From contig NZ_JALTON010000039.1 of NCBI RefSeq assembly GCF_027000115.1, positions 62,001 to 126,000 on the forward strand: DNA of 64,000 bases. Reading direction: 5' to 3'. The notes beneath the pieces are model-generated. The model had not been told where the DNA came from and searched no databases. It saw only the letters and a program-made list of their open reading frames with translations. Of this stretch, positions 76-44,896 are shown in pieces (the first letter of the stretch is position 1; every line of letters starts with the position of its first letter). The position numbers were made by a program, and so were the translations under genes. Source of the DNA: Thiohalobacter sp. Lineage in GTDB: Bacteria > Pseudomonadota > Gammaproteobacteria > Thiohalobacterales > Thiohalobacteraceae.

Positions 76-1557
76 ATGACCCACCGCTCCCGAGTTGTGC
101 CCGCAGCCCTCCGCCGCACCCTCCCCGCCCTGCTGATCGGACTGGCCAGCGCCTGCCCGGTACCGGCCGCAGCCGACCCGCTGGCCCTGCCGGACATGGG
201 CGACCCCTCCGGTCAGACCCTGTCGCCCGCCACGGAATCCGCGCTGGGCGAGGCCTTCATGCAGCAGCTGCTGGCGACGACCGAGCTGGTGGAGGACCCG
301 GAACTCGACCGCTACATTGCCGAACTGGGCGCCCGGCTGGTCGCCGCCAGCGACGCGCCGGACCGGGCCTTCCACTTCTTCCTGGTCCGCGACCCCAGCA
401 TCAATGCGTTCGCGGCCCCCGGCGGCCACATCGGCCTCCATACCGGCCTGTTGCTGGCCGCGCGGAGCGAGAGCGAACTCGCGGCGGTGCTGGCCCACGA
501 AATCGCCCATGTCACCCAGCGTCATCTGGCCCGGGCCTACGACAGCGCCAGCCGCATGAGCCTGCCCACTGCCGCGGCCATCCTCGCCGCCATCCTCATC
601 GGCACCCAGAACAGCGAGGCCGGCCAGGCCGCACTCATGACCGTGCAGGCCGGCAACATTCAAAAGCAGATCGATTTCACCCGCGGCAACGAACGCGAGG
701 CAGACCGCATCGGCATGCAAATGCTGGCCCGCACCGGCTTCGATCCGCTGGGCATGCCCGCCTTCTTCGAACGTCTGCAGGCCCAGACCCGCTATTATGG
801 TGACCGGATCCCGCCCTTCCTCAGCACCCATCCCGTCACCCGCGACCGCATCGCCGATGCCCAGGCGCGAGCCGACCAGCTCCGCCCTGCGCGGCCGCGT
901 GACGAACTCGACTTTCACCTGATGCGGATGCGCCTGCGCGTGCTGGAAAGCCGCGACCCGGCCCGGCTGCATGCCGAACTGGCGGCCGGCGAGACCGGAC
1001 TGCCGGAGACCGCCCGAAGCTACGGACTGGCCCTGGCCGAGCTGCGCAACGGCGCCCCCGAGCGCGCGCAGAGTCGACTGGCGGCCCTGCACCGCGCCGA
1101 CCCGGACCGACTCAGCTACCGCCTCGCGCTGGCCAAGGCGCTGGACCGCGCCGGCCGTCGCGACGCCGCGCTGCGCCTGTACCGTGATACCCTCGCGCTC
1201 TACCCGGGAAACCTGATCGTCGCCCGGCAGCTGGCGCGCACATTGCTCGACGGCGGACAGCCCCGTGCCGCCCATGATCTCCTCGACCCGCTCCTGCGCC
1301 AGAATTCCAGCGCGCCCGCATCGGCCTATGCATTGCTCGGCCGCGCCGCCCGCGCCATCGGCCGCAGCGCCGATGCGCACGAGGCCATGGCCGAATACCA
1401 TGCGCGAAAGGGCCAGCTGCACGCCGCCATCGAACAACTGAAGCTGGCCCTGGAGGCAGAAGACGCGGACTTCTACCAGCGCGCACGGCTGGAAGCACGG
1501 CTGGCCGCGCTGGAGCGCCAGGCGCTGGCTCGAAAAAACGCGCTCAAGGGGGAATAA
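76..1557 (+). CDS. bepA: BepA-type periplasmic M48 metalloprotease with TPR region
   Basis: Zinc metalloprotease of family M48 with a helical-repeat C-terminus, the architecture of BepA (YfgC). In E. coli BepA supports LptD assembly at the BAM complex and degrades stalled substrates in the periplasm. The N-terminus is a signal peptide: basic start, hydrophobic core, cleavage near PAAA-DP. The zinc motif HEIAH is at residues 141-145 and the downstream glutamate ligand lies in NEREADRIG. Roughly the last 220 residues are Ala/Leu-rich helices consistent with TPRs. Its 493 residues match the E. coli length (487). The ATG at 76 was preferred to the one at 58 because it gives a normal signal peptide; neither has a clear Shine-Dalgarno. 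It seems monocistronic, and the next gene (soxX) has its own promoter. Confidence 0.88.
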   Translation: MTHRSRVVPAALRRTLPALLIGLASACPVPAAADPLALPDMGDPSGQTLSPATESALGEAFMQQLLATTELVEDPELDRYIAELGARLVAASDAPDRAFHFFLVRDPSINAFAAPGGHIGLHTGLLLAARSESELAAVLAHEIAHVTQRHLARAYDSASRMSLPTAAAILAAILIGTQNSEAGQAALMTVQAGNIQKQIDFTRGNEREADRIGMQMLARTGFDPLGMPAFFERLQAQTRYYGDRIPPFLSTHPVTRDRIADAQARADQLRPARPRDELDFHLMRMRLRVLESRDPARLHAELAAGETGLPETARSYGLALAELRNGAPERAQSRLAALHRADPDRLSYRLALAKALDRAGRRDAALRLYRDTLALYPGNLIVARQLARTLLDGGQPRAAHDLLDPLLRQNSSAPASAYALLGRAARAIGRSADAHEAMAEYHARKGQLHAAIEQLKLALEAEDADFYQRARLEARLAALERQALARKNALKGE

Positions 1558-1712
1558 ACGCGCGCATCCTGCCGTCAAACGGCTAGAGTGCATCTGGATC
1601 GGGATGCACGGCATGGGCGTGAAATGCCGGAAGTCCGTCACATTGCACCCCGGAAGGCCAAAGGCCCACAAAGAACCGTACAACCGGTAAAAGGTGTCGA
1701 GGCGTCGCGGCT

Positions 1713-1857: not shown

Positions 1858-2238
1858 ATGCGGCTACGTTCAAGCATCATTTCGACTGCAGCTTCCATGG
1901 CCATCGCGCTGGGAAGCCTCGCCCTTGCCCCCGCTTCGAACGCGGTGGCTGCCGAAGCCGGCAACTCCGTGATCGAGCAGGGCAAGGAGATTGCCTTCAA
2001 TCGCAAGAAAGGCAATTGCCTTGCCTGCCACCAGATTGAAGGCGGCAGCCTGCCTGGCAACATCGGTCCGCCGTTGGTCGCCATGAAGGCCCGTTTCCCC
2101 GACAAGGCCAAGCTGCGCGCGCAGATCTGGGACGCGACTCGCAACAACCCGAACTCGATCATGCCGCCGTTCGGCCGGCACAAGATCCTGTCCGAGGACG
2201 AGATCGACAAGATCGTGGAATTCATCTACACGCTCTGA
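1858..2238 (+). CDS. soxX: Sulfur-oxidation c-type cytochrome SoxX
   Basis: Small periplasmic cytochrome that pairs with SoxA. Together they form the oxidative disulfide bond between thiosulfate and the SoxY carrier cysteine and pass electrons on. The protein has 126 residues: a signal peptide to about residue 36, then a single haem site CLACH near residues 57-61. The C-terminal IMPPFG motif supplies the distal methionine and is typical of SoxX. A GAGGAG site precedes the ATG. It is first in the order soxX-Y-Z-A, and soxY begins 31 bases downstream. Confidence 0.95.
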   Translation: MRLRSSIISTAASMAIALGSLALAPASNAVAAEAGNSVIEQGKEIAFNRKKGNCLACHQIEGGSLPGNIGPPLVAMKARFPDKAKLRAQIWDATRNNPNSIMPPFGRHKILSEDEIDKIVEFIYTL

Positions 2239-2269
2239 ACCCCTTGCGTGATTCTTAGGAGATATCGAA

Positions 2270-2743
2270 GTGACGAGCATCAAACGCAGAACACTCCTGA
2301 AGGGCACCCTTGCCGCTGGCGCCGTGGGCATGGCCGTTGGCACCGGGCTGCTGACTCCCCGCACCGTGCTGGCCGCCTGGCCCAAGGACGCCTTCGACGC
2401 CAAGTCGGTGGATGCGGCACTGAACGCCCTGTTTGGCAACAGCACCCTGGAAGGCAGTGACAAGATCAAGATCAAGGCCCCGGACATCGCCGAGAACGGC
2501 GCCGTGGTCCCGGTCTCGGTCGACGCCGGCATCGACGGCGTGGAGGCCATCAGCATTCTCGCCGAGAAGAATGCCCAGCCCCTCACCTCCACCTATCAGC
2601 TCGGTCCGGGCGCGGAAGGCTACGTTGCCACCCGCATCAAGATGGGCAAGACCTCCAGCGTCATCGCGGTGGTCAAGGCCGGCGGCAAGCTCTACAGCAC
2701 CGGCAAGGAAGTGAAGGTCACCATCGGCGGCTGCGGCGGCTGA
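2270..2743 (+). CDS. soxY: Thiosulfate carrier subunit SoxY
   Basis: SoxY carries pathway intermediates covalently on a cysteine near its C-terminus while SoxXA, SoxB and (where present) SoxCD act in turn. The 157-residue product has a Tat signal peptide: twin arginines at residues 6-7, then a hydrophobic stretch ending VLAA before WPK. It finishes with the diagnostic swinging arm GGCGG, whose cysteine is the sulfur attachment site. The start is GTG, preceded by AGGAGATATC. It forms the SoxYZ heterodimer with the next gene and must be exported as a folded complex. Confidence 0.96.
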   Translation: MTSIKRRTLLKGTLAAGAVGMAVGTGLLTPRTVLAAWPKDAFDAKSVDAALNALFGNSTLEGSDKIKIKAPDIAENGAVVPVSVDAGIDGVEAISILAEKNAQPLTSTYQLGPGAEGYVATRIKMGKTSSVIAVVKAGGKLYSTGKEVKVTIGGCGG

Positions 2744-2788
2744 TCGCCCCTTCCGACGCTAGAGATCAGATTTACAGAGGAATCGAAC

Positions 2789-3103
2789 ATGGCGAATACA
2801 ATCAAGGTTCGCGCAAAGCTGTCTGGCGACACCACGACGGTCAAGGCGCTCATCAGCCACCCCATGGAAACCGGTCAGCGCAAGAACAAGAAGACCGGCA
2901 AGCTCATCCCCGCCCATTTCATCCAGGAAGTGGTCTGCGAGCACAACGGCAAGGCCGTGCTGACCGCAGAGTGGGGTCCGGCGATTTCCAAGAATCCCTA
3001 TCTGTCGTTCCGCTTCAAGGGCGCCGCCAAGGGGGACACCCTCAAGCTGCGCTGGGTCGACAACAAGGGCGAAAGCGACGCCATCGAAACCAAAGTCAGC
3101 TGA
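2789..3103 (+). CDS. soxZ: SoxZ, partner of the SoxY carrier
   Basis: A 104-residue beta-sandwich protein without a signal peptide, as expected for SoxZ, which is exported bound to Tat-targeted SoxY. The start MANTIKVRAKL, the HPMETGQRK segment and the FKGAAKGD region are typical of the family. An AGAGGAAT ribosome site precedes the ATG. It lies 45 bases after soxY and 59 bases before soxA, consistent with one transcript. Confidence 0.95.
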   Translation: MANTIKVRAKLSGDTTTVKALISHPMETGQRKNKKTGKLIPAHFIQEVVCEHNGKAVLTAEWGPAISKNPYLSFRFKGAAKGDTLKLRWVDNKGESDAIETKVS

Positions 3104-3162
3104 GGCGACGGCGGCCCGCGTGCCTGCGCGGGCCCGAGCCAAGTCCAAAGGAGGCAAACTTT

Positions 3163-3999
3163 ATGAAGAAGCTCCTGAGCATCGTCGCGGTGCTGGGTAT
3201 CGTGGCAGCCGCGCCGCAGCCAGCCAGCGCCACCCCGGAACAGGACCTCAAGGAATTCCGCGAATACTTCAAGAAACGGTTCCCCAACGTGCCGTTCGAG
3301 GACTATGTGAACGGCGTGTATGCCGTCGACACTGCCTCGCGGGCCCAGTGGGAGTCGATCGAGGATTTCCCGCCCTATGAAATCAACATCGACAACGGCA
3401 AGAAGCTGTTCAACACGCCTTTCAAGAATGGCAAGACCTATGCCAGTTGCTTCCCCAATGAGGGCATCGGCATCCGCCAGAACTATCCCTACTTCGACAA
3501 GGCCAGCGGCAAGGTGGTGACGCTGGAAAGCGCCATCAACGACTGCCGGGTCAAGAATGGCGAGAAACCCCTGAAGTGGAAGAAGGGTGCGATCGCGGAC
3601 ATCTCCGCCTACATGGCCTACACCTCGCGCGGCAACAAGATGAATATCGTGGTGCCGAACGACCCGCGGGCCATCGAGGCCTACGAGCGCGGCAAGCACC
3701 ATTTCTACGCCAAGCGGGGCCAGCTCAACATGGCCTGTGCGGACTGCCACGTGTACAACGCCGGCAACCGTATCCGCGCTGACATCCTGAGCCCGGCCCT
3801 CGGTCATGTCACCCACTTCCCGGTCTACCGCTCCAAGTGGGGCGAGCTGGGGACGCTGCATCGCCGCTACGGTGGCTGCAACAAGCAGGTGCGCTCCAAG
3901 CCGTTCAAGGCCCAGAGCGACGAATACCGGGCTCTGGAGTACTTCCACTCCTACATGAGCAACGGGCTCGAGGTGAACGGACCCGGCGCACGCAAGTAA
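3163..3999 (+). CDS. soxA: Sulfur-oxidation cytochrome SoxA, single-haem form
   Basis: Catalytic partner of SoxX in loading thiosulfate onto SoxY. The start at 3163 follows a strong AAAGGAGG site and opens a signal peptide (MKKLLSIV... ending ASA before TPEQ). Only one haem motif is present, CADCH in the C-terminal half. Where two-haem SoxA proteins carry an N-terminal CxxCH, this one has a lone cysteine followed by FPNEG. The cysteine in RYGGCNKQVR matches the active-site cysteine that ligates the catalytic haem. At 278 residues it has a usual length. A hairpin terminator follows 17 bases after the stop. Confidence 0.93.
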   Translation: MKKLLSIVAVLGIVAAAPQPASATPEQDLKEFREYFKKRFPNVPFEDYVNGVYAVDTASRAQWESIEDFPPYEINIDNGKKLFNTPFKNGKTYASCFPNEGIGIRQNYPYFDKASGKVVTLESAINDCRVKNGEKPLKWKKGAIADISAYMAYTSRGNKMNIVVPNDPRAIEAYERGKHHFYAKRGQLNMACADCHVYNAGNRIRADILSPALGHVTHFPVYRSKWGELGTLHRRYGGCNKQVRSKPFKAQSDEYRALEYFHSYMSNGLEVNGPGARK

Positions 4000-4016
4000 G
4001 CCCCGGGCACGAACGA

Positions 4017-4055
4017 CGAACCCGGTCTGGTCCCCCAGGCCGGGTTCGTTTCTTT
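4017..4055 (+). terminator. Rho-independent terminator after soxA
   Basis: A stem of about 13 pairs (arms 4017-4030 and 4036-4048, one G-U pair) closes a short C-rich loop and is followed by TTTCTTT. It would end or attenuate the soxXYZA transcript and so lower expression of soxB, which starts 130 bases further on. Confidence 0.75.
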
Positions 4056-4185
4056 CCAGGCCATGGAATAGGCACCCCCTCATGATCGTCTCTCTTCCAG
4101 CGGCCCGCCGAACCGGCTCGGCCCGACGGCCCGGTGGCAGCCGGACAGCCCAGCACAACGAATTGATTCCTGGAGGTCTTTCCCC

Positions 4186-5940
4186 ATGACGATATCGCGC
4201 CGAGAATTCCTGCAGATGCTTGCGGTGGCCAGCGTCTCCGGCATCCATCTCGCTGGCTGCGAATCCGGCTCGGATACCCAGAAGCAACCCGCAGGCATCA
4301 AGCCCAACAAGGCGCCGAGCAATCTCTACGAGGTCCCTGCCTTCGGCAATGTGTCGCTGATGCACTATACGGACTGCCACGCCCAGCTGCTGCCGGTATA
4401 CTTCCGCGAGCCGAACATCAACCTGGGCATCGGCGACATGCGCGGCAGGCCCCCGCATCTGGTCGGCGAGGCCTTCCTCAAGCACTTCGGCATTGCCCCC
4501 GGGACCCCGCAGGCGCACGCCTTCACCTACCTGAACTTCGTCGAGGCGGCCCGCCGTTTCGGCAAGGTGGGCGGCTTCGCCCATCTCAAGACCCTGGTGG
4601 ACAAGATCCGCGACCAGCGCCCCGGCTCGCTGCTGCTGGACGGCGGCGACACCTGGCAGGGCTCCGCCACCTCCCTGTGGACCAACGCCCAGGACATGGT
4701 CGATGCCCAGTTGCTGCTTGGCGTGGACGTCATGACGCCCCACTGGGAGATGACCTTCGGTGCCGACCGCGTCCGCGAGATCGTCGAAAAGGACTTCGCC
4801 GGCAAGATCGCCTTCGTGGCCCAGAACATTGTCGACAACGACTGGGGCGAGGGCGTGTTCGACCCCTATGTGATCCGCGAGATCAACGGCGTGCCCACCG
4901 CCATCATTGGCCAGGCCTTCCCCTACACCCCCATCGCGAACCCGCGTTACATGGTGCCCGACTGGAGCTTCGGCATCCGTGACGAGCGCATGCAGGAAAT
5001 GGTCGACAAGGCCCGTGGCGAAGGCGCCCAGGTGGTGATCGTGCTGTCGCACAATGGCATGGACGTGGACATCAAGATGGCCAGCCGCGTCACCGGTATC
5101 GACGCCATCATGGGTGGACACACCCATGACGCCATTCCACGGCCCACCATCGTCGAAAACACCGGCGGCAAGACCCTGGTCACCAATGCCGGCTCCAACG
5201 GCAAGTTCCTGGCCGTACTCGACCTGGATGTGAAGAACGGCAAGGTGCGGGACTTCCGCTACCACCTGCTGCCGGTCTTTGCCAACATGCTCAAGCCCGA
5301 CCCCGAGATGAGCGCCTACATCGAGAAGGTGCGCGCGCCCTACAAGGACAAGCTGGAAGAACAGTTGGCGGTAACCGACTCCCTGCTCTATCGCCGCGGC
5401 AACTTCAACGGCACCTTCGACCAGCTCATCTGTGACGCCCTGATGGAAGAGATGGGCGCCCAGATTGCCTTCTCGCCAGGCTTCCGCTGGGGTGTCAGCC
5501 TGCTGCCGGGCTCGCCCATCACCTTCGACGACCTGATGACCCAGACGGCCATTACCTACCCGACGGCGACCCTCAACAACATGACCGGCGCCCGCATCAA
5601 GGAAATCCTCGAGGACGTGGCCGACAACCTGTTCAACAAGGACCCCTACTACCAGCAGGGCGGCGACATGGTGCGCGTGGGCGGCCTGAAATACGCGATC
5701 GACCCGACTGCCGACATCGGCCACCGCATTACCGCCATGGAGCTGGATGGCGAACCCCTGGATGCGAACAAGGAATATGCGGTGGCCGGCTGGGCCAGCG
5801 TCGCTCAACCGCTGGAGGGTCGCCCCATCTGGGACGTGGTCGCGACCTGGCTGCGCGACCGGAAAACGGTGACGGTCAACAACCTCAACGTACCGAAGAT
5901 CCAGGGCGTGGACGGCAATCCCGGCCTCGCCCTGCTCTGA
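4186..5940 (+). CDS. soxB: SoxB, S-sulfosulfanyl-L-cysteine sulfohydrolase
   Basis: Di-manganese hydrolase that releases sulfate from the thiosulfate-loaded SoxY cysteine. It belongs to the calcineurin-like phosphoesterase / 5'-nucleotidase superfamily. The 584-residue product has a Tat signal (RREF at residues 5-8). Metal motifs are visible: YTDCHAQ near residue 63, GGDTWQG near 150, SHNGMD and GGHTHDA near 310. The signal peptide ends in LAGC with the cysteine at residue 25, which reads as a lipobox, so membrane anchoring is possible; this is unusual for SoxB and needs testing. GGAGGTC precedes the ATG. It is separated from soxA by a terminator and 186 bases. No soxCD is found in the window. 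Confidence 0.95.
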   Translation: MTISRREFLQMLAVASVSGIHLAGCESGSDTQKQPAGIKPNKAPSNLYEVPAFGNVSLMHYTDCHAQLLPVYFREPNINLGIGDMRGRPPHLVGEAFLKHFGIAPGTPQAHAFTYLNFVEAARRFGKVGGFAHLKTLVDKIRDQRPGSLLLDGGDTWQGSATSLWTNAQDMVDAQLLLGVDVMTPHWEMTFGADRVREIVEKDFAGKIAFVAQNIVDNDWGEGVFDPYVIREINGVPTAIIGQAFPYTPIANPRYMVPDWSFGIRDERMQEMVDKARGEGAQVVIVLSHNGMDVDIKMASRVTGIDAIMGGHTHDAIPRPTIVENTGGKTLVTNAGSNGKFLAVLDLDVKNGKVRDFRYHLLPVFANMLKPDPEMSAYIEKVRAPYKDKLEEQLAVTDSLLYRRGNFNGTFDQLICDALMEEMGAQIAFSPGFRWGVSLLPGSPITFDDLMTQTAITYPTATLNNMTGARIKEILEDVADNLFNKDPYYQQGGDMVRVGGLKYAIDPTADIGHRITAMELDGEPLDANKEYAVAGWASVAQPLEGRPIWDVVATWLRDRKTVTVNNLNVPKIQGVDGNPGLALL

Positions 5941-6016: not shown

Positions 6017-6048
6017 CCGCTTCCGCCCTGGTGCAATATGCGGGCTAG
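6017..6048 (-). repeat. Terminal fragment of the dispersed TAGCCCGCATATTG element
   Basis: On the minus strand this begins TAGCCCGCATATTGCACCAGG, then GGCGGAAGC, matching the right end of the full-length element at 51306-51567. The TAG at its very end is the stop codon of the iron permease gene. Only the terminal 32 or so bases are present; the soxB terminator follows at once. Confidence 0.75.
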
Positions 6049-7946
6049 CCCGCCTGCGCCGGCGACCGGCGCGGGCCGCGCCCGAACCAGAGATACAGGC
6101 CGAGCGCGATCAGCACCAGCTGGGCGCCGAGCGCCTGCAGATTGGGATAGATCCCCAGCCAGTCGATACGGATGAAGGCCACGGGATTGACCGGAATCAT
6201 CCCGGCCTCCTGCAGCGCGGCCACGCCCTTGCCGGCAAAGATCACCGCCAGCATGAACATGAGCGCGCCCGAGGCCACGAAGAACTGCCGCAGCGGCAGC
6301 CGTACGCTATAGCGAATGACCAGCCAGGCGACCACCACCAGCACGCCGACACCGGCCGCGAAGCCGCTCACGGCCCCGCCGCGCCCCCCTTCCCCGAGCT
6401 GGGTCCAGAGCGCCTGGTAGAAAAGGATGGTCTCGAATACCTCGCGATAGACAGCAATGAAGGCCAGGCCAGCCAGTCCCCAGAGCGTGCCGCTGTCCAG
6501 CGCACGACTCACGGCGCGCTCGATGAACTGCTTCCATTTCAGCGCGCTGGACTTGTCATGCATCCAGAAACCCACGTAGAAGAGGACCAGCGCCGCGACC
6601 AGCGCCGCCACGCCTTCGGTGAGTTCGCGACTGCCGCCGGAGATGTCGATCAGGGTCACGGAGGCCAGCCAGGTCAGGAACCCGGCGGCCAGGGCGCCCA
6701 GCCAGCCGGCATGGATGTAGGGCAGCGCGTCGCGCCGGCCGGTCTTGACGAGAAAGGCCACCAGCGCCGCCACCACCAGCAGCGCCTCGAGCCCCTCGCG
6801 CACCAGGATGAAGAAGGCACCGGAAAACGCACTGGCCGTCGACAGCCCGCCGACGCCCAGCGCGTCTTCCACCCGGTCCAGGTCAGCAAGGATGGCCTCC
6901 ACGCTGGCGGACAGGACCCGCGGCTCGGGCCGGGTGCGCAGCAGATTGCGCAGCTCGAGCATTTTCTGTTCCACCTTCAGGCGCAGCTCGGGATTCACGG
7001 CATTCAGTGCCTGTTCGACCAGCTCGAAGCCCTCCAGATAGGCCTCGATGGCCAGCCTGCGGGCCGCCTTCTGGTCGCCGGCCGCGTAGGCCACGAGCAT
7101 CTGCTGCAGGCGGCCCCGCGCCACGTCGAGCGGCGCATCGCCGCCGTAGACCCTTTCCGGATGGCTACGCAGGTAAGCCACCATGGCGGCCGCCTCGGCA
7201 CCGAAACGTCCCTCGGCCTCGGCCGGCGTCATGGCCGTCAGCACGCGCGAATCGAGAACCGGTGAATCCGGATTGCGGGCCAGCGCCTCGGCACCATTGG
7301 CCTTCAGTTCGGTACTGGGTGCGAGCTGGCCCACGTAGAAGGCCAGGGCCCAGCGGTCCCGGTCGGACAGCTCGGTATAACCGCGCATCCCGGTATCGGC
7401 CACCCCCTGGCTGATGGTGCTGTAGAGGCCATGGAGCGTGCGCTGACGATAGCGCGCGTAGTCGGTGAAATCGGTGGGGGCAGGCTCGAGCGTGGCGGCC
7501 AGTGGCCCGTCACCCCGACCCTCGACACCATGGCAGGCGACGCAGTGTTCGGCAAACAACGCCCTTCCCCGGGCCAGATCGGGCACTCCGCGTGGCCGGA
7601 TGGCCACGTCGAAGGCCTCGATCATCTGCTCGCGAATGCGTCCCGCAAGGGCCTGGATCTCATCTGCTGGCGCCCGCGCCTCGATGCGCGCGGCCAGCTC
7701 GCCGGCCAGTTGCAGCAGCGCGTCGCGCGCCTCGCCCGGCGGCAGCGCCGCGAGCTGTTCGAGAATGGCGCCGGCGAAGTCCTGCATCTCGGCGTACTCG
7801 TCCGGGTTGGCGATGTTGCCGCTCGCGTCCACCGCGCCACCATAGTCCACGGCGACGTAGTCGACCATCTGCAGCGTCTGCTCGATACCGGCCGCGGCCA
7901 GCCCCGGCAACCACAGACACATCGCCAGCAACACCCGCTTCCACAT
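6045..7946 (-). CDS. Cytochrome c / FTR1-family iron permease fusion
   Basis: A 633-residue protein that joins a periplasmic segment to an FTR1-type iron permease. It has a signal peptide (residues 1-20), then a mostly helical extracytoplasmic region containing a haem-binding CVACH near residue 136 with a likely methionine ligand in GMRGY. After a further helical segment comes a multi-spanning membrane domain from about residue 370. This carries both family REXXE motifs, REGLE and REVFE, which bind ferric iron during transport. The fused haem domain suggests that oxidation of Fe(II) is coupled to uptake. The start follows a GAGG site; a GTG one codon earlier is possible. A Fur-box-like sequence lies upstream. 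The TAG stop falls within a dispersed repeat. Confidence 0.88.
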   Translation of the reverse strand: MWKRVLLAMCLWLPGLAAAGIEQTLQMVDYVAVDYGGAVDASGNIANPDEYAEMQDFAGAILEQLAALPPGEARDALLQLAGELAARIEARAPADEIQALAGRIREQMIEAFDVAIRPRGVPDLARGRALFAEHCVACHGVEGRGDGPLAATLEPAPTDFTDYARYRQRTLHGLYSTISQGVADTGMRGYTELSDRDRWALAFYVGQLAPSTELKANGAEALARNPDSPVLDSRVLTAMTPAEAEGRFGAEAAAMVAYLRSHPERVYGGDAPLDVARGRLQQMLVAYAAGDQKAARRLAIEAYLEGFELVEQALNAVNPELRLKVEQKMLELRNLLRTRPEPRVLSASVEAILADLDRVEDALGVGGLSTASAFSGAFFILVREGLEALLVVAALVAFLVKTGRRDALPYIHAGWLGALAAGFLTWLASVTLIDISGGSRELTEGVAALVAALVLFYVGFWMHDKSSALKWKQFIERAVSRALDSGTLWGLAGLAFIAVYREVFETILFYQALWTQLGEGGRGGAVSGFAAGVGVLVVVAWLVIRYSVRLPLRQFFVASGALMFMLAVIFAGKGVAALQEAGMIPVNPVAFIRIDWLGIYPNLQALGAQLVLIALGLYLWFGRGPRRSPAQAG

Positions 7947-7983
7947 CACGCCAACCTCATGCCTGTTTACCCAGATTTCAAAT

Positions 7984-8465: not shown

Positions 8466-9728
8466 CTACATGGCCTCGAGCTTGCGCAGGCCGCCGGGCA
8501 ACAGCCGCAGGTCGACCAGCGCGGTGACCAGCGCCTTGAAGAAGGTGGCCTCGGTGTCGTAGAGCATCTTGTAGTACTGAATCTTCATGGTCAGGGCCGC
8601 GCCGAGCACGATGGCCCCGAAGGCAAGGAAGGAACCGACCGCCAGCGTGGAAACGCCGGTCACACCCTGGCCGATGGTGCAACCCAGCCCCAGCACACCG
8701 CCGAAACCCATGAGAACGGCACCGATGGCGTGATTGAGAAAGTCCCTCCAGGAAGCAAACCACTCGAAGCGGAAGCTGCGGGTGATCAGCGACCAGGCCA
8801 ACGAGCCCAGCACCACCCCGAACACGGCCATCACCCCGAAGGTGAGGTAGCCGGAACCGAACCTGGCGGCCACGTAGCCCAGCATCTGCCCCATGGGGTT
8901 GATGAAGGTATAGGACTGCGGCGCCAGCGGGCGGCTGTCGGCCGGCTTGCCTTCGGGCGAATCGGCAAGGAAATCCCACTGCTGGACGAATTCGCGCAGG
9001 GAATACTGCTCACCGTCGACGTCGATGAAGATGACACTGGAGACATACCAGGCACCGACCACGCCCAGACCGATGGTCAGGCCACCGAGGATGTTATCGA
9101 AACGCCCTCGGAACTCCTCGGCACGAAACACGAACGCCAGCAGCAGCGCACCCAGGGCGAGGCCGATCCAGAGTCGCAGACTGACGGCATTCTCCGCATC
9201 GATGATGGATCCCAGATCCTGGGGCGTGCTCAGGCCGACCGCCAGCGGGCGGATCCAGTCGTAGAAGAGCACGGACATCAGCGTTGCATCGGTCCCCGGG
9301 AAGGGATTGACCATGAAGTAGGCGATCACCGCGATGATGGCAAACACCACCAGAGACTTCATGTTGCCGCCGCCGATACGCACCAGGGTCTTGTTGCCGC
9401 AGCCCGATGCCAGGGTCATGCCGATGCCGAACATCAAGCCACCGAGCAGGTTCTCGGCCCAGATGAGCTGGGAGGCCCGGTAGGGCGGAAAGGCATCAGA
9501 GGCGTTGACCAGACCCCGGCTCTCCAGAACCACCACGCCGATCATCGCCACGGCAATGGCGAACAGCCAGGCCCGCATGCGGCCAGTGTCGCCCATGTTG
9601 ACCATGTCCGAAACCGCGCCCATGGTGCAGAAGTTGGTCTTGTTGACCAGTGCCCCCATCACGAAGGCGATGCCGAAGGCGGACCACAGCAGGGTCTGCC
9701 AGGCTTGCGCAAAACTCTCGAATCCCAT
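8466..9728 (-). CDS. YeeE/YedE-family sulfur-compound (thiosulfate) transporter
   Basis: A 420-residue membrane protein with about a dozen hydrophobic segments, of the YeeE/YedE (TsuA/PmpA) family. TsuA members move thiosulfate through a channel lined by conserved cysteines. Three matching cysteine motifs are present here: NKTNFCTMG near the start, ASGCGNKTL in the first half and LGLGCTIGQG in the second, a pseudo-symmetric pair of repeats. The ATG at 9728 is preceded by GAGGAGGTAG and gives the expected N-terminus; the open frame upstream is ignored. It lies 37 bases after queC and is probably co-transcribed. In this sulfur oxidiser, import of thiosulfate or a related sulfane-sulfur compound is the likely role; the substrate is inferred. 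Confidence 0.85.
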   Translation of the reverse strand: MGFESFAQAWQTLLWSAFGIAFVMGALVNKTNFCTMGAVSDMVNMGDTGRMRAWLFAIAVAMIGVVVLESRGLVNASDAFPPYRASQLIWAENLLGGLMFGIGMTLASGCGNKTLVRIGGGNMKSLVVFAIIAVIAYFMVNPFPGTDATLMSVLFYDWIRPLAVGLSTPQDLGSIIDAENAVSLRLWIGLALGALLLAFVFRAEEFRGRFDNILGGLTIGLGVVGAWYVSSVIFIDVDGEQYSLREFVQQWDFLADSPEGKPADSRPLAPQSYTFINPMGQMLGYVAARFGSGYLTFGVMAVFGVVLGSLAWSLITRSFRFEWFASWRDFLNHAIGAVLMGFGGVLGLGCTIGQGVTGVSTLAVGSFLAFGAIVLGAALTMKIQYYKMLYDTEATFFKALVTALVDLRLLPGGLRKLEAM

Positions 9729-9765
9729 GGGGGCTACCTCCTCGTCTTGATGAACTCGTCGATGC

Positions 9766-10464
9766 TCAGGCGGACTCTGCCTGATAGGCCGTCGGGTCGG
9801 GCACGCCGGCAGCAGCGAATCCGGCTGCCCGCAGCCGGCAGGAATCGCAGCGGCCACAGGCCCGACCCCGGGCATCCGCGGCATAGCAGGACAGGGTCAG
9901 GCCATAGTCAACGCCGAGCCGGACACCGGTACGGATGATCTCCGCCTTGGTCATCCGGATCAGTGGGGCATGCACGCGGATCGCGACACCCTCCACCCCG
10001 GCCCGGGTCGCCAGGTTAGCGAGACGCTCGAAGGCTTCGATATATTCCGGCCGGCAGTCGGGGTAGCCGGAGTAGTCCACGGCGTTCACGCCCACAAACA
10101 GGTCGCGCGCGCCCAGCACCTCGGCCCAGGCCAGCGCCAGGGACAGGAAAATGGTATTTCGGGCAGGCACATAAGTAACCGGAATGCCCTCGCTGGGGCC
10201 CTCGGGCACGGCAATGTCAGGGTCGGTCAGGGCCGAACCGCCAAAGGCGGCGAGATCGATGGGCAGAATGCGGTGTTCACGTACCCCCTGCGCCTCGGCC
10301 ACGCGCCGGGCTGCCTCCAGCTCGGCGCGATGGCGCTGGCCATAGTCCAGGCTGAGGGCATGACAATCGAAACCCTGCTCACGGGCGATGGCCAGCGCCG
10401 TGGCCGAGTCCAGGCCGCCGGACAGCAGCACCACCGCCGGGCGGCTGTCAGCGCCCCGGCTCAT
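9766..10464 (-). CDS. queC: 7-cyano-7-deazaguanine synthase QueC
   Basis: ATP-dependent enzyme converting 7-carboxy-7-deazaguanine plus ammonia to preQ0, a precursor of queuosine in tRNA. Visible features are the PP-loop [10 protein letters not shown] near residue 14 and the C-terminal zinc cluster with cysteines in [18 protein letters not shown]. Its 232 residues are standard. It overlaps the end of queE by 17 bases, so the two are translationally coupled. Confidence 0.95.
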
Positions 10465-30021: not shown

Positions 30022-30729
30022 TCAGACCTTGATGTAGGACCAGCCCTCGCGCAGGCGCTGAATCACGTGCTCGACGGCGGTGGAATCGGTATGGGTGCCG
30101 TTGATCAACAGCGCCTTCTGACCCCGTTCCTGCACCCGCTTCACGGCATTGCTGCAGGCGATGAAGGTGAGATTGTCGTACTCGTTCATCATGCGCGCGA
30201 CCCGGGCCGCATAGGGGGAAACATCCACTCGCAGCATGTCCAGGCCGCCGGCATTGGCCAGCACCTCGACCTTGATGCCCTGCTCCCGATACTGTCGCAA
30301 CAGCTTCTCGGCGTCGTCGAGAACGGTCTCGAACTTGCCGGGATCCGCCTCGGCGATATGCAGTACCACCCGGTACCGACTGGCCACCACGTCCTGCAGC
30401 ACCACGCTGTTGACGCCAGCCTCCGGGACCGGGCGCAGGTGCCAGCCGGCGAAGAAACTGACCGCCAGGAAGACCAGCCCCGCGGCGACGCCGCCCAGTC
30501 GCACCCGCCGCCGCGGCCGTTCGCCGCCATGTCGGGGCGGATGTGCCTCCCCGAAGGCGAGATGCATCCATTCCTTGGTGCGGCGAAGCTCGCAGACCTG
30601 CTCGCGCAACCGGGGATCGGCCTCCATCGCCGCCAGCAGGCGCTCGCGGCCATGCGTATCCAACTGGCCGTCGACGAAGGCGTGCAGCTCGTCGTCACTG
30701 AAGGCAGGGGTCCTGTTGATCCTGTTCAT
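30022..30729 (-). CDS. Membrane anti-sigma factor with extracytoplasmic DsrE-like domain
   Basis: A 235-residue protein in three parts. Residues 10-60 resemble an anti-sigma domain (DDELHAFVDGQLD then helices), without a full zinc H-x3-CxxC site. One transmembrane helix (about 77-98) separates it from a periplasmic domain of about 135 residues. That domain resembles COG1416/DsrE-type proteins: IAEADPGKFETVLDDAEKLL, then FIACSNAVKR with a single cysteine, ending GWSYIKV. The exported protein at 31512 has the same layout (FSACDNTFAK, ending GYHLIKP). The gene follows the ECF sigma gene by 28 bases. A GTG one codon upstream is an alternative start. The sensing role is inferred. Confidence 0.8.
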   Translation of the reverse strand: MNRINRTPAFSDDELHAFVDGQLDTHGRERLLAAMEADPRLREQVCELRRTKEWMHLAFGEAHPPRHGGERPRRRVRLGGVAAGLVFLAVSFFAGWHLRPVPEAGVNSVVLQDVVASRYRVVLHIAEADPGKFETVLDDAEKLLRQYREQGIKVEVLANAGGLDMLRVDVSPYAARVARMMNEYDNLTFIACSNAVKRVQERGQKALLINGTHTDSTAVEHVIQRLREGWSYIKV

Positions 30730-30757
30730 CACAACTGCTTATACCACTCCATACAGG

Positions 30758-31333
30758 CTAGCGCACGCGCCGCAGGCGGGCGGGTTCGGCCGCCCCTTCC
30801 TCTTCGGCCAGGCCTTCGGGCCGGGGCCGGATGGCCCTGAGCGAGCGCTGCAGGGCCTTGCGCGCACGGTTCAGACGGCTCATTACGGTGCCGATCGGTA
30901 TTTCAAGAATTTCCGCGACTTCGGCGTAGGTCAAGCCCTCCAGATCGACCAGCGTGACGACCTCGCGCTGTCCCACCGGCAGGCGAGCGACGGCGGCACG
31001 CACCCGTTCCACGATCTCGATGCGGCTGGTCAGGCCCTCGACGCTCGGCCCGCCCGGCATCTGTTCCTCGTCGAGCTGGCAGCTTGGACGCTGGCGACGC
31101 AGATACTGGCGCCAGCAGTTGTGCAGCACCGAGTACATCCAGGCATGGAGGCGGTCGGGATCGCGCAACTGATGGCTCTTCTGCAACGCCAGCGCCATGG
31201 CCTCCTGGACCAGATCGTCCGCGACCATTTCGTCTCCACACCAGGCAAAAGCCACCTTGTACAGGCGGCCACGGCTGCGGGCAATGCGGTCGCGCAGCGT
31301 CAGCGCCGCACAGAGTCGGGTTACCAGTTTCAT
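30758..31333 (-). CDS. ECF-type RNA polymerase sigma factor
   Basis: Sigma-70 family ECF factor of about 191 residues with only regions 2 and 4. Region 2 has DDLVQEAMALAL and LHAWMYSVLHNCWRQYLRR. Region 4 has the helix-turn-helix GLTYAEVAEILEIPIGTVMSRLNRARKAL. An Arg/Glu/Ala-rich tail of about 25 residues follows. The start was set at MKLVTRL. The ribosome site is poor (AGG directly at the ATG), so a leaderless or alternative start is possible. It is followed by its anti-sigma gene and is divergent from a DsrE-like and a porin gene. Confidence 0.88.
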   Translation of the reverse strand: MKLVTRLCAALTLRDRIARSRGRLYKVAFAWCGDEMVADDLVQEAMALALQKSHQLRDPDRLHAWMYSVLHNCWRQYLRRQRPSCQLDEEQMPGGPSVEGLTSRIEIVERVRAAVARLPVGQREVVTLVDLEGLTYAEVAEILEIPIGTVMSRLNRARKALQRSLRAIRPRPEGLAEEEGAAEPARLRRVR

Positions 31334-31362
31334 CCTGTCCGTGTAGATGCACCCTGCGCCCG

Positions 31363-31443
31363 TTTTATTTCCTCTATTTCGAACCTGCGACACCAAACTC
31401 GTCCGGGCCATGCCCCGGCGGAATAAAACCACCCGCCAGGTTC
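31363..31443. promoter_or_regulatory. Inverted-repeat control region between the ECF sigma gene and the DsrE-porin genes
   Basis: GAACCTG at 31381-31387 is mirrored by CAGGTTC at 31437-31443, and TTTTATT at 31363 by AATAAAA at 31422. The near-palindrome CCGGGCCA/TGCCCCGG (31403-31418) lies between them. GAACC resembles the -35 element of many ECF promoters, and CGTC follows 14 bases after GAACCTG's GAACC on the plus strand. The region could hold facing ECF promoters or an operator; the exact elements are unproven. Confidence 0.45.
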
Positions 31444-31511
31444 TCTATGGGGCCAGGCAGACGACACGCCGTCCGCCTGGCAATCAGAGAACCCGAACGA
31501 GGAGGATGTTC

Positions 31512-31967
31512 ATGTCCGATCACAAGCAGTGGTGGCACTGGCTGTGGGCCCTGTGTCTGGCCCTCGGCCTTGCCGGCAACACACTGGCCGCCGAAAACCC
31601 CAAGCCCTTCGCTGAAAAACGCATTGTGCTGCAGATCAGCGATCCCGATCCCTTCAAGCAGACGCTGGTCCTCAACGTGGCCAGCAACCTGGTCAAGTAC
31701 TACGGACCGGACAAAGTGGACATCGAGATCGTCGCCTTCGGGCCCGGGCTGCGCCTGCTGCTGGCCGAGAACGCCAACGCCGGTCGCATCGACTCGCTCG
31801 CCGAAGGCGCCGGTGTGCGCTTTTCCGCCTGTGACAACACCTTTGCCAAGTACACCAAGGCACTGGGCCGGGAACCGGCCCTGAACCCGCGTGCACGGCA
31901 TGTCAAGGCCGGGGTCGTGCGCATCATCGAATTGATGAAGCAGGGCTACCACCTGATCAAGCCCTGA
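31512..31967 (+). CDS. Exported DsrE-like (COG1416-type) protein
   Basis: A 151-residue protein with a signal peptide (MSDHKQWWHWLWALCLALGL, cleaved near NTLAAE). The mature part resembles the DsrE/COG1416 fold: IVLQISDPDPFKQTLVLNVAS, FGPGLRLLL, GVRFSACDNTF and the C-terminal GYHLIKP. One cysteine remains in the mature protein, in the position where the family keeps a reactive cysteine. GAGGAGG with 6-base spacing sets the start at 31512. Its fold matches the periplasmic domain of the neighbouring anti-sigma factor. A role in binding or sensing periplasmic sulfane sulfur is inferred, not shown. Confidence 0.82.
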   Translation: MSDHKQWWHWLWALCLALGLAGNTLAAENPKPFAEKRIVLQISDPDPFKQTLVLNVASNLVKYYGPDKVDIEIVAFGPGLRLLLAENANAGRIDSLAEGAGVRFSACDNTFAKYTKALGREPALNPRARHVKAGVVRIIELMKQGYHLIKP

Positions 31968-32017
31968 TTCGGGTGACCTCCACACAGAACAGCTACACTG
32001 CAGCGAAGGAGCATTCC

Positions 32018-33310
32018 ATGAAATCACTCAACACCGCGATCAAGATGTGCCTGGCGACCGCCGCGCTGGCCAGCGCGCCGGGTCACGCCGCCAACTGGCT
32101 GATGCTTCAGGGCACCGAGCCAGCCGGCTCCGCCGCCCGCGCCAAGCTCTGGGGCTTTGTCCAGGCCCAGTACCAGAAGGACTTTTCGGAGCCCTTTGTC
32201 AATGCCGGCACGGAGGTCTACATTCCGCCCAAGCTGATCGGTCCCAACCTCGACGACCAGTCCCAGTTCAATGTCAACCGGGCGCGTATCGGCGTACGCG
32301 GCACGGGCTTCCCGCTGGACAGCAACGTCAACTACTTCGTGCTCGTGGAAATGGGCAACAACGCCATCACCAACGGTGCCAATTCCTTTGCCCATCTGAC
32401 CGATGCCAGCATCACCCTGAATCACATCGAGGGGGCGCGTGTCCGCGCCGGCCTGTTCAAGTATCCGGGCTCCGAAGAGGGCCTGCAGGCCATTCACGTA
32501 TTCGACTACATCAATTTCACCAATGTGACCAACCAGTTGCTTCTCGAGCGTTTTCCGGATGCATCGGACACCAACCAGGCAGCGACGCCCACGCCCAACG
32601 CCGACATGAACCAGATCTCCAATCCGGTCGGTGCCTTCCGTGATGTCGGCGTGCAGGTCTTCGACACCTTCAGGAACGGGGAGTGGGAGCACAGCTACGC
32701 GCTGATGTATGGCAACGGCAATGGCCTGAACTTCGGCGACGGCAACGGCAACGGCAAGGGCAACCTCTACGCCTACTGGGCCTCGGAGAAGGTGTTCGGC
32801 GGCAAGGGTGGCCGGCGCGAGGGCTGGAAGACCTTTGCCTGGTGGCAAAAGGGCAAACGCGTGAACGCCTACGACACCAGCCAGGAGCAGAACCGCACCC
32901 GCTGGGGCGCAGGCACCAAGTATCTGAAGAAGCCCTGGCGCGTGACCGCCGAGTACATGAAGGGCAAGGGCATGATCTTCCAGGGACCGCACCGCCCGCA
33001 GCATCTGTTCAACGATCTCGAGGCGAGCGGCTGGTATGTCGAGGGCGGCTGGTACATCCCGCAGACCGCCTGGGAAATCGACCTGCGCTATGACTACTAC
33101 AAGCGCGACGAGAACCATCCCACCTCGGCCGCAGGCGACCAGACGGAGTTCAAGACCTGGACCATCGGCGCCCAGTACCACTTCAACAAGAAGACCCGGG
33201 TGAACATCGAGTACGCCGCGCGCGACAACAGCTCCGACACCACGGCCATCGACAACCAGAACAAGGACGTGAAGGGGCGCCTTGCCATCCAGCTCACCGC
33301 GATCTTCTGA
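32018..33310 (+). CDS. Outer-membrane porin (OprP/O-like family)
   Basis: A 430-residue beta-barrel protein with a signal peptide ending GHAA. Features are alternating aromatic/charged strands, the NVNRARIGVRGTGFPLDSNVNYF segment typical of OprP/OprO-like porins, a Gly/Asn-rich loop (GNGNGLNFGDGNGNGKGN, about 240-260), and a C-terminal phenylalanine (LAIQLTAIF) for BAM recognition. AAGGAG precedes the ATG. It lies 50 bases after the DsrE-like gene with no terminator between, so the two are probably co-transcribed. The selectivity is unknown. Confidence 0.83.
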   Translation: MKSLNTAIKMCLATAALASAPGHAANWLMLQGTEPAGSAARAKLWGFVQAQYQKDFSEPFVNAGTEVYIPPKLIGPNLDDQSQFNVNRARIGVRGTGFPLDSNVNYFVLVEMGNNAITNGANSFAHLTDASITLNHIEGARVRAGLFKYPGSEEGLQAIHVFDYINFTNVTNQLLLERFPDASDTNQAATPTPNADMNQISNPVGAFRDVGVQVFDTFRNGEWEHSYALMYGNGNGLNFGDGNGNGKGNLYAYWASEKVFGGKGGRREGWKTFAWWQKGKRVNAYDTSQEQNRTRWGAGTKYLKKPWRVTAEYMKGKGMIFQGPHRPQHLFNDLEASGWYVEGGWYIPQTAWEIDLRYDYYKRDENHPTSAAGDQTEFKTWTIGAQYHFNKKTRVNIEYAARDNSSDTTAIDNQNKDVKGRLAIQLTAIF

Positions 33311-42997: not shown

Positions 42998-44896
42998 TCA
43001 GCCAGTCGCGGCATCACCACCGGACGCCGGCTCATCCTCGACCAGGTGATAGAGCGGTGCCTTCTCCATGGTGTACTCACCGGTTTCCGGATCGCGACGC
43101 GATACCGTCAACACATGCCAGTTCTCGTCGTCCAGCTTCATGAAGTCGCCACGATAGTAGTAGCCTGGCCAGCGCGTTTCCTCGCGGAACAGCGTGTGCT
43201 GGATCACCGCCTCGGAGGTGAGGATGCGATGCTTCAGCTCCCAGGCACGCAGCAGCTCGTGGATGTTCTCCGCGGCGATGCCGTTCTCCCAGTCTTCCTC
43301 CAGGATCTTGAGCTTCTTGAGGCCGATCTTGAGGAGATTCTCGTTGGTCATGTAGTTGACCGTGACGCCGCCAGCATACTCATCCATCAGCTTCTGCAGG
43401 CGATCGAGGCCCTGACGCGGGTTGATGTAGTGCGGGTTCACCGTACCTGCGGTGATCGCATTGCGATACACCCGGTAGGTCTCCATCGGCTTGTAGATCT
43501 CCTCCCGGCGCTTCGCGATCTGGGCATCGGTCACGCGGATGCCCTCGGCCTTGCCGTCGTCGATGTACTTGCAGGCCGCCTTGGCCGCCAGCCGACCCTC
43601 GGTGAAGGAACCGGAAGAGAAGGCGTGCGGCGTGCCGCCCGCGGCGTCACCGGCACCGAACAGGCCTTCCACCGTGGTCATGCGGTTGTAGCCCCAGAAG
43701 TACTCCGGCGGAGACACGTCTTCCGGACCGGACACCCAGGCGCCGCAACCGGTGGCGTGGGATCCCATGACATAGGGCTCGGAGGTGGTGAGCTCGGGGT
43801 TCTCGTACTTGGGATCCACATCGGTGGCGGCCCAGAGCACGGCCTGACCCACGGTCATGCCGAGGAAGTTGTGCCAGCCGATCTCTTCCAGATGCGGGTC
43901 CTGGAAGGCCTCCATGGTCACCATGCGGATGGGACCGCGGCCGGCGTTCACCTCCTGGATGAAGGCGTGGTTGCGCAGGCAGGTCGGGATGGGACGATGG
44001 GTACGGTGCGAGGCCTCGGGATCGAGATAGGCCTTGCCGACCATCTCCTGCAACGAGGGCCACCACTTGGACTCGTACTCCTCGCCCAGGCCATTCTGGG
44101 TATAGGTCTTGAGGTGCAGGAAGTAGGCACCCACCGGACCGTAGCCGTCCTTGAAGCGGGCCAGCACGATGCGGTTTTCCATCTGCGTCATCTTGGCACC
44201 GGCGCCGATCAGCAGGCCATAGGCCGAGCCGGAGGACCAGGGCGCATACCAGACGCGGCCGGCACCCTCGCCCACGGAGCGGGGCTTGTAGATGTTGGAG
44301 GCGCCGCCGGCGGAGACGATCACGGTCTTGGACTTGAACACGTGATAGTCGCCGGTACGCACGTTGAAGCCCACGGCACCGGCCACCCGGTTGGGGCGGC
44401 TTTCGTCCATGAGCAGGTGGGTCACGCAGATGCGGTTGTAGACCTTGTCGGCGGACTTCTTGGCCGCCTCGGCCACGATCGGCTTGTAGGACTCGCCGTG
44501 GATCATGATCTGCCAGCGGCCTTCACGCTGGTAGGTGCCCTTCTTCTCGTTGCGCATGATCGGCAGGCCCCATTCCTCGAACTGGTGCACAGCCGAGTCC
44601 ACGTGGCGGGCCATGTCGAACAGCAGGTCCTCGCGCACCATGCCCATCAGGTCGATGCGGGCATAACGCACATGGTCTTCCGGCTGGTTCTCGCCGAACC
44701 GGGTACCCATGTAGCAGTTGATGGCGTACAGACCCTGCGCCACGGCGCCGGAGCGGTCGATGTTGGCCTTTTCGGCGATGACGATCTTCTTGTCCGGACC
44801 CCAGTAACGCGCCTCGAACGCCGCGCCCGTGCCGGCAAGGCCGGCGCCCACGACCAGAACGTCGATGTTGTCTTCAACTACCGTTTTGAATTTCAT
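42998..44896 (-). CDS. aprA: Adenylylsulfate reductase, alpha subunit
   Basis: FAD-containing catalytic subunit (632 residues). In sulfur oxidisers it works in reverse, oxidising sulfite with AMP to adenosine 5'-phosphosulfate in the cytoplasm. It has the dinucleotide motif VVGAGLAGTGAA near residue 14, the RSGAVAQGLYAINCYMG substrate/FAD region and the family C-terminal capping region. The start shares bases with the aprB stop (TGATG), so the two are translationally coupled. A terminator follows. Confidence 0.97.
   Translation of the reverse strand: MKFKTVVEDNIDVLVVGAGLAGTGAAFEARYWGPDKKIVIAEKANIDRSGAVAQGLYAINCYMGTRFGENQPEDHVRYARIDLMGMVREDLLFDMARHVDSAVHQFEEWGLPIMRNEKKGTYQREGRWQIMIHGESYKPIVAEAAKKSADKVYNRICVTHLLMDESRPNRVAGAVGFNVRTGDYHVFKSKTVIVSAGGASNIYKPRSVGEGAGRVWYAPWSSGSAYGLLIGAGAKMTQMENRIVLARFKDGYGPVGAYFLHLKTYTQNGLGEEYESKWWPSLQEMVGKAYLDPEASHRTHRPIPTCLRNHAFIQEVNAGRGPIRMVTMEAFQDPHLEEIGWHNFLGMTVGQAVLWAATDVDPKYENPELTTSEPYVMGSHATGCGAWVSGPEDVSPPEYFWGYNRMTTVEGLFGAGDAAGGTPHAFSSGSFTEGRLAAKAACKYIDDGKAEGIRVTDAQIAKRREEIYKPMETYRVYRNAITAGTVNPHYINPRQGLDRLQKLMDEYAGGVTVNYMTNENLLKIGLKKLKILEEDWENGIAAENIHELLRAWELKHRILTSEAVIQHTLFREETRWPGYYYRGDFMKLDDENWHVLTVSRRDPETGEYTMEKAPLYHLVEDEPASGGDAATG

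Follow-up and report, generated by a model that had tools for sequence, protein, structure and literature searches.

Several described systems resemble parts of the locus analysed here. RpoE4 of Sinorhizobium meliloti and SigE of Starkeya novella, extracytoplasmic function (ECF) sigma factors of group ECF26, are encoded next to an anti-sigma factor, are autoregulated and control genes for periplasmic sulfur (sulfite) oxidation; their signal is sulfite and their targets are sorT and sorAB (PMC3511301, PMC6527743). RpoE, RseA and RseB of Escherichia coli represent a sigma factor, an anti-sigma factor with one membrane helix and a periplasmic modulator. SoxR and sHdrR of Hyphomicrobium denitrificans control sulfur-oxidation genes (sox in the case of SoxR) by sensing sulfane sulfur via cysteines. 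Both are cytoplasmic DNA-binding repressors of the ArsR type, to which the sulfur must be brought in (SoxT1B) (PMC12423496). The DsrE fold is represented by MTH1491 (PDB 1l1s), ST0148 (2pd2) and DsrE of DsrEFH (2hy5), all of them stand-alone and unfused to an anti-sigma domain. Here we describe a locus within a stretch of 64,000 nt from Thiohalobacter sp. (contig NZ_JALTON010000039.1), in the following called the window. It encodes an ECF sigma factor, an anti-sigma factor with a periplasmic DsrE-type domain and, divergently, an exported DsrE-like protein followed by a porin. This locus is a candidate for an envelope switch that responds to reactive sulfur.

The initial annotation had proposed these four genes and quoted the motifs FIACSN and GWSYIKV for the anti-sigma factor and FSACDN and GYHLIKP for the exported protein. 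All four genes were found at their positions and the motifs are exact. The sigma factor (sigma1, 30758..31333, minus strand, 191 amino acids) carries regions 2 and 4 only (Sigma70_r2 2.6e-12, Sigma70_r4_2 1e-18, both over the Pfam cut-off). The anti-sigma factor is encoded at 30022..30732 on the same strand. It consists of an N-terminal cytoplasmic anti-sigma domain (~aa 12-60), one membrane helix (~aa 81-99) and a C-terminal periplasmic DsrE/COG1416 domain (aa 119-236, 30025..30378). The sequence likeness of the cytoplasmic domain to known families is weak, with zf-HC2 found in 9 of 38 members and E values of 0.15 for MucA and 0.3 for RseA. A zinc redox switch of the ZAS type is unlikely given that this domain has one conserved cysteine only (C47, 30/38). 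The exported stand-alone DsrE/COG1416 protein, which has a signal peptide, is encoded at 31512 (or 31506)..31967 on the plus strand. The ATG at 31512 most likely serves as its start since an AGGAGG directly abuts the ATG at 31506. Next follows the gene for an outer-membrane porin (32018..33310, plus strand; Porin_4 9e-11, over the Pfam cut-off).

The structures of both DsrE-like proteins were predicted in silico using AlphaFold2 with 38 homologues for the anti-sigma factor and 34 for the exported protein. The mean predicted local distance difference test (pLDDT) values are 87 and 92.7, respectively. Foldseek returned 1l1s as the best match of both models with a template modelling (TM) score of 0.90 by target length, followed by ST0148, other DsrE proteins and chains of DsrEFH (for the anti-sigma domain also DsrE, 2hy5_A). 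Sequence comparison agrees with the models. The DsrE part of the anti-sigma factor and the exported protein match each other in BLASTP (E 3e-10, 28% identity over 116 aa), the exported protein finds 1l1s with 6e-7, and the family profiles match MTH1491 with 9e-19 (anti-sigma) and 8e-28 (exported protein). Pfam DsrE (PF02635) does not reach its gathering score in the window, the exported protein scoring 18.1 versus 22.7 bits and the anti-sigma factor being unmatched. At E values up to 0.01 the same model finds 28/34 exported homologues (best 5e-14) and 2/38 anti-sigmas. Pfam and NCBIfam both miss the DsrE domain of the window anti-sigma factor; name-based annotation would therefore not expose it. 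Based on the predicted models, both parts are confirmed as mutually related DsrE/COG1416 folds. The initial annotation had assumed one fold for both and had named differing folds as an argument against its reading; the predicted folds agree.

We collected 81 anti-sigma proteins from 80 named loci (Thiohalobacter, Thiogranum, Thiobacillus, Hydrogenophilales, Sulfuriferula, Gallionellaceae, Pandoraea and others). Their last 135 residues hold a single cysteine, located at the same site in 81/81. In the window protein this is Cys193 (codon 30154..30156, minus strand), the sole cysteine of the periplasmic domain and invariant in the alignment (38/38). Other invariant residues of the domain are H125, L138, G163, R168, A192, G230, W231 and Y233. 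One cysteine is likewise conserved in the exported proteins (34/34 aligned), where it mostly lies within FxACxNT or FxVCxNT. In the window it is found in FSACDNT (Cys109 numbered from 31506, codon 31830..31832, plus strand). The conserved cysteine sits at the end of the strand preceding the last helix pair and aligns with the cysteine of MTH1491 (FxACxNT). Homologues lacking it, which had been named as a possible refutation, were found neither among the 81 anti-sigmas nor among the aligned exported proteins. Orthologues or paralogues of the anti-sigma factor with 38-52% identity are present in 11/11 genomes of the order (Thiohalobacterales), and 18 anti-sigmas from the order share the build of the window protein (N-terminal domain, single membrane helix, DsrE domain), including the invariant cysteine. 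Two short anti-sigma-like proteins (L059, G006 C49; L060, G000 C55) consist of the N-terminal domain only, without a DsrE domain. The gene of L059 adjoins a divergent sigma-like gene.

The neighbourhood is conserved as well. The sigma gene adjoins the anti-sigma gene in 81/81, a divergent gene for an exported DsrE protein lies at most 2 kb away in 66/81 (several loci are cut by contig ends), and a porin follows in many of the 80 named loci. The complete four-gene unit recurs in 7/11 genomes of the order and in most of the named loci. Owing to this retention, the arrangement is not a product of chance. No sulfite-oxidase gene lies beside the window sigma gene, whose neighbours are the exported DsrE and the porin; only in Pandoraea (P. 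terrae) is soxC the gene divergent from sigma.

The intergenic regions of these loci share the signature GGAATAA-N15-CGTC, which stands in front of the sigma gene, the DsrE gene or both. Within 0.86 Mb, 107 matches were found as compared with ~1.6 expected, the spacing being 15 in 94 cases. The sigma region accounts for nearly all of them (103); of the remaining 4, 3 precede exported DsrE genes. A relaxed motif is found on at least one strand in 76/81 loci and on both strands in 47. Loci whose sigma factor groups with that of the window have TCTC, GCTC or CATC as -10 element instead of CGTC. The predicted promoter of the window sigma/anti-sigma operon (31346..31372, minus strand) is GGAAATAA-N15-CATC with a chance expectation of 0.01 in the window; this variant has one match there, at the expected place. 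The predicted promoter of the DsrE-porin unit is located at 31420..31445 on the plus strand (GGAATAA-N15-TCTC). GGAATAA-N17-TC matches twice in the 64-kb window (0.07 expected), once ahead of the exported DsrE gene and once ahead of soxX. Judged from these sites, the sigma factor is predicted to be autoregulated from an ECF-type promoter with GGAA at -35. The predicted -10 lies only ~13 nt ahead of the sigma start codon (31333-31346), with a similar situation in Thiobacillus, which suggests nearly leaderless sigma transcripts. In two Thiohalobacter loci of the paralogous sigma2 described below (L129, L140), a second GGAATAA-N15-CGTC is located upstream of sigma2 on the opposite strand, directed into the 3'-terminal part of the adjacent gene. 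It may have been left behind by a divergent DsrE gene that was lost, or it may drive an antisense transcript. L092 and L116 carry sites that resemble it.

The window also harbours a soxX-soxY-soxA-soxB cluster (1858-5940) 28 kb from the sigma locus. It comprises soxX (1858..2238; TIGR04485 99.7 bits, cut-off 61), soxY (2270..2743; TIGR04488 172.7 bits), soxA (2971..3999; TIGR04484 256 bits) and soxB (4186..5940; TIGR04486 888 bits), all on the plus strand. A predicted ECF promoter with GGAATAA-N15-CGTC is found upstream of soxX at 1551..1576 (plus strand), rendering soxX a putative regulon member. GGAAT[AG]N-N15-CGTC occurs upstream of soxX at similar distance in 11/11 genomes of the order. 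In the own genome of the window the signature has 7 matches (reversed control 0), namely at sigma2, the window DsrE gene, soxX, an exported DsrE gene on contig C44, a lipoprotein gene and two ambiguous sites.

The motif was moreover searched genome-wide in eight, then fifty named genomes bearing the anti-sigma factor, with sox and sor identities assigned using NCBIfam. Outside the known loci it precedes soxX (seven genomes), soxB (two), soxA, a sorA-like gene, porins and a thioredoxin-like gene. A third type of exported DsrE protein stands behind the motif in about ten Thiobacillus-like genomes (VIQVSDxNPATWNLALNN; with signature in L264, L267, L270, L274, L281, L188, L189 and L203). The reversed control of the 50-genome search gave about one third as many matches, hence some matches are due to chance. 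Those at L249, L260, L275, L287 and L293 are probably of this kind, with no convincing gene downstream. Taken as a whole, the architecture of the switch and its predicted regulon are well supported computationally. Further genes with the signature are SoxB-like 5'-nucleotidase genes in Thiobacillus-like genomes (L261, L265, L276) and, in three genomes (L250, L295, L299), a binding-protein-like periplasmic gene (DYRTFxxxGxIxYGxIxDSYxADLVMYLAGNQFMVMEDL). NCBIfam gave no match for the one such protein tested. In L178 (Pandoraea terrae) the signature lies ahead of a gene for a small secreted protein that resembles the lipoprotein-15-repeat family, as recognised by eye. This family has been reported in the rpoE1 operon of S. 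meliloti (PMC3511301).

A second, paralogous sigma/anti-sigma(DsrE) pair is present in 11/11 genomes of the order, with no DsrE or porin gene adjoining. In the own genome it is located on contig C18 (sigma2). In the sigma tree, the window sigma1 clade is separate from a large clade that contains sigma2 and the Thiobacillus factors, and the -10 elements follow this division (sigma1 TCTC, GCTC and CATC; sigma2 CGTC). The soxX motif persists in those genomes of the order that lack the four-gene cluster and have sigma2 only. Since in addition the soxX -10 is CGTC, the idea that the window's own sigma1 drives sox in this genome is weakened. Based on the promoter types, sigma1 probably drives the DsrE-porin unit (-10 TCTC/CATC) and sigma2 on C18 probably drives soxX (CGTC). 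The control of DsrE and porin by the sigma factor, as suggested in the initial annotation, is backed computationally by the shared promoter signature. The regulon given there was incomplete: it missed the sox genes and the second pair, to which the sox promoter fits better.

The distribution of the full-length anti-sigma factor was determined in an even sample of 369 Gammaproteobacteria. It is present in 69 genomes from 41 sampled families. SoxX scores over its cut-off in 66/69 of these and in 95/300 of the others; by family, the ratio is 39/41 with the anti-sigma factor versus ~40/141 without (family labels transcribed by hand). DsrA is found in 55/69, including all three genomes that lack SoxX. 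Thus 69/69 genomes possess SoxX or DsrA, in line with the link to sulfur oxidation assumed beforehand. In a phylum sample of 399 genomes no full-length anti-sigma factor was detected outside the Gammaproteobacteria. As the matches there looked DsrE-only, and nine that were examined further had no homologue of the sigma factor alongside, full-length anti-sigmas seem to be confined to Gammaproteobacteria.

Taken together, we consider it somewhat more probable than its opposite (roughly 0.6) that the locus represents an envelope switch for reactive sulfur in sulfur-oxidizing Gammaproteobacteria. For the identity of the signal, the role of the cysteine, the release of sigma and a dialogue between the two DsrE proteins we infer the following course. 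The cytoplasmic domain of the membrane-bound anti-sigma factor would hold the ECF sigma factor while its DsrE-type domain is displayed in the periplasm. Reactive sulfur in the periplasm, be it sulfane sulfur, polysulfide or a thiosulfonate derived from tetrathionate or thiosulfate, would modify or occupy the site of Cys193. The sulfur might arrive directly or be delivered by the exported DsrE protein or by SoxYZ. In the initial annotation the proposed signal was sulfane sulfur or a persulfide carried on the exported protein and read by the anti-sigma domain, a reading that our results support in part. DsrE3A of Metallosphaera, a member of the DsrE family, takes over a thiosulfonate from tetrathionate with its cysteine and hands it to TusA (PMC4175335); it is for this reason that we assume reactive sulfur to act on Cys193, either directly or via the exported protein. 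A shape change or regulated proteolysis would then weaken the hold on sigma. The freed factor would transcribe its own operon as well as the exported DsrE-like carriers with the porin. In several lineages such factors would transcribe sox and sor genes too, and the periplasm would be equipped for the import, carriage and oxidation of reduced sulfur. A wider version of this proposal is tentative and falls a little short of even odds. According to it, sulfur-oxidizing Gammaproteobacteria would possess a broad class of transmembrane sensors for sulfur, so far undescribed: a sulfur-carrier fold, recruited as the periplasmic sensor of anti-sigma factors, would monitor how much sulfur its exported paralogue carries and would turn on the sox genes and those for DsrE carriers.

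Several points weigh against the reactive-sulfur switch. A gene for an exported DsrE protein is missing from the surroundings of some anti-sigma genes, among them the C18 paralogue. The cysteine is a feature of the fold family, because it is also invariant in the exported homologues and present in MTH1491, and is as such no proof of sensing. The co-occurrence statistics ignore phylogeny apart from the family-level count. Finally, the soxX motif as a general mark of anti-sigma genomes is not upheld in the wider class, where its strict form is found in 4/18 genomes with the anti-sigma factor versus 0/10 without (p 0.27).

Among the alternatives, a feedback by the carrier survives best, albeit we regard it as rather unlikely. 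Here the DsrE domain would bind the exported DsrE protein, and the loaded or empty state of the latter, or its amount, would set the hold on sigma, comparable to RseB and RseA and with no direct reaction with small sulfur compounds. It is consistent with the exported DsrE protein being both the most constant partner and a regulon member (66/81 loci, further DsrE types elsewhere), and with the ability of the common fold to form hetero-oligomers in DsrEFH (2hy5 being among the structural matches). The C18 paralogue and its orthologues nonetheless retain the DsrE sensor without an adjoining exported DsrE gene. A sensor of sulfite or of oxidants in general, as in ECF26 RpoE4 and SigE, is less likely still. 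S-sulfonation or oxidation of the cysteine would then serve detoxification and not substrate recognition. The ECF26 factors of Sinorhizobium and Starkeya do regulate sulfite oxidases and respond to sulfite (PMC3511301, PMC6527743), and the motif targets include a sorA-like sulfite dehydrogenase gene as well as soxC. Most targets are however DsrE carriers and soxXAB instead of sulfite enzymes alone, and a DsrE domain in ECF26 anti-sigmas is not mentioned in the two papers. It is improbable that the DsrE domain serves structure or protein contacts, without sulfur chemistry, in an ordinary envelope-stress system of sulfur oxidizers: anti-sigma outer domains are highly diverse and envelope-stress systems typically target porins (such as that of the window; the motif before porins in L256, L258 and L280), but one cysteine is invariant in 81/81, the regulon is rich in sox and DsrE genes and every anti-sigma genome has SoxX or DsrA.

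Apart from the sox cluster, the window contains aprA (adenylyl-sulfate reductase alpha) at 43001-44896, and dsrA is located on contig C46. Judged by its gene content, the host belongs to the sulfur oxidizers and has Sox, Apr and Dsr. The gene at 8469-9884 (minus strand) encodes a relative of the thiosulfate transporter TsuA (77 bits versus a cut-off of 400), likely a sulfur transporter of the SoxT/YeeE type. An EfeU/Ftr1-like iron permease with a cytochrome-like N-terminal part is encoded at 6048-7949 (minus strand).

Little is known about how Thiobacillus, Thiohalobacter and other sulfur-oxidizing Gammaproteobacteria perceive thiosulfate or other forms of reduced sulfur outside the cytoplasm. 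Those regulators of sox that our literature search yielded are cytoplasmic repressors or two-component systems. Our analysis supplies a candidate sensor from 41 sampled families with a single cysteine, a promoter signature and a small predicted regulon. Moreover the exported DsrE proteins, which accompany the sensor in most loci, gain a likely place in periplasmic sulfur trafficking. If true, reduced sulfur would be sensed on a periplasmic route, unlike by the cytoplasmic repressors known for sox. The initial annotation knew of no described regulator with a DsrE sensor. Likewise, the open papers searched describe neither an anti-sigma factor with a DsrE domain nor such a sigma/anti-sigma control of sox, a mention in the supplements of ECF classifications remaining possible. 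Signalling by ECF and anti-sigma factors as such is known; the sensor fold and the regulon are undescribed in that literature, and the switch is probably an undescribed way for sulfur oxidizers to sense reduced sulfur.

Compared with the known systems, the window locus combines familiar parts in a different manner. From the ECF26 pairs, for whose anti-sigmas no DsrE domain has been reported (PMC3511301, PMC6527743), it differs by its DsrE-fold sensor and by its targets, i.e. exported DsrE, porin and sox, when compared by their published descriptions. With RpoE/RseA/RseB it shares the overall layout and an N-terminal domain weakly like that of MucA and RseA, whereas its periplasmic domain is of the DsrE type with an invariant cysteine and the co-regulated periplasmic protein is homologous to the sensor domain. 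In contrast to SoxR and sHdrR, the signal would be perceived in the periplasm and relayed by a sigma factor.

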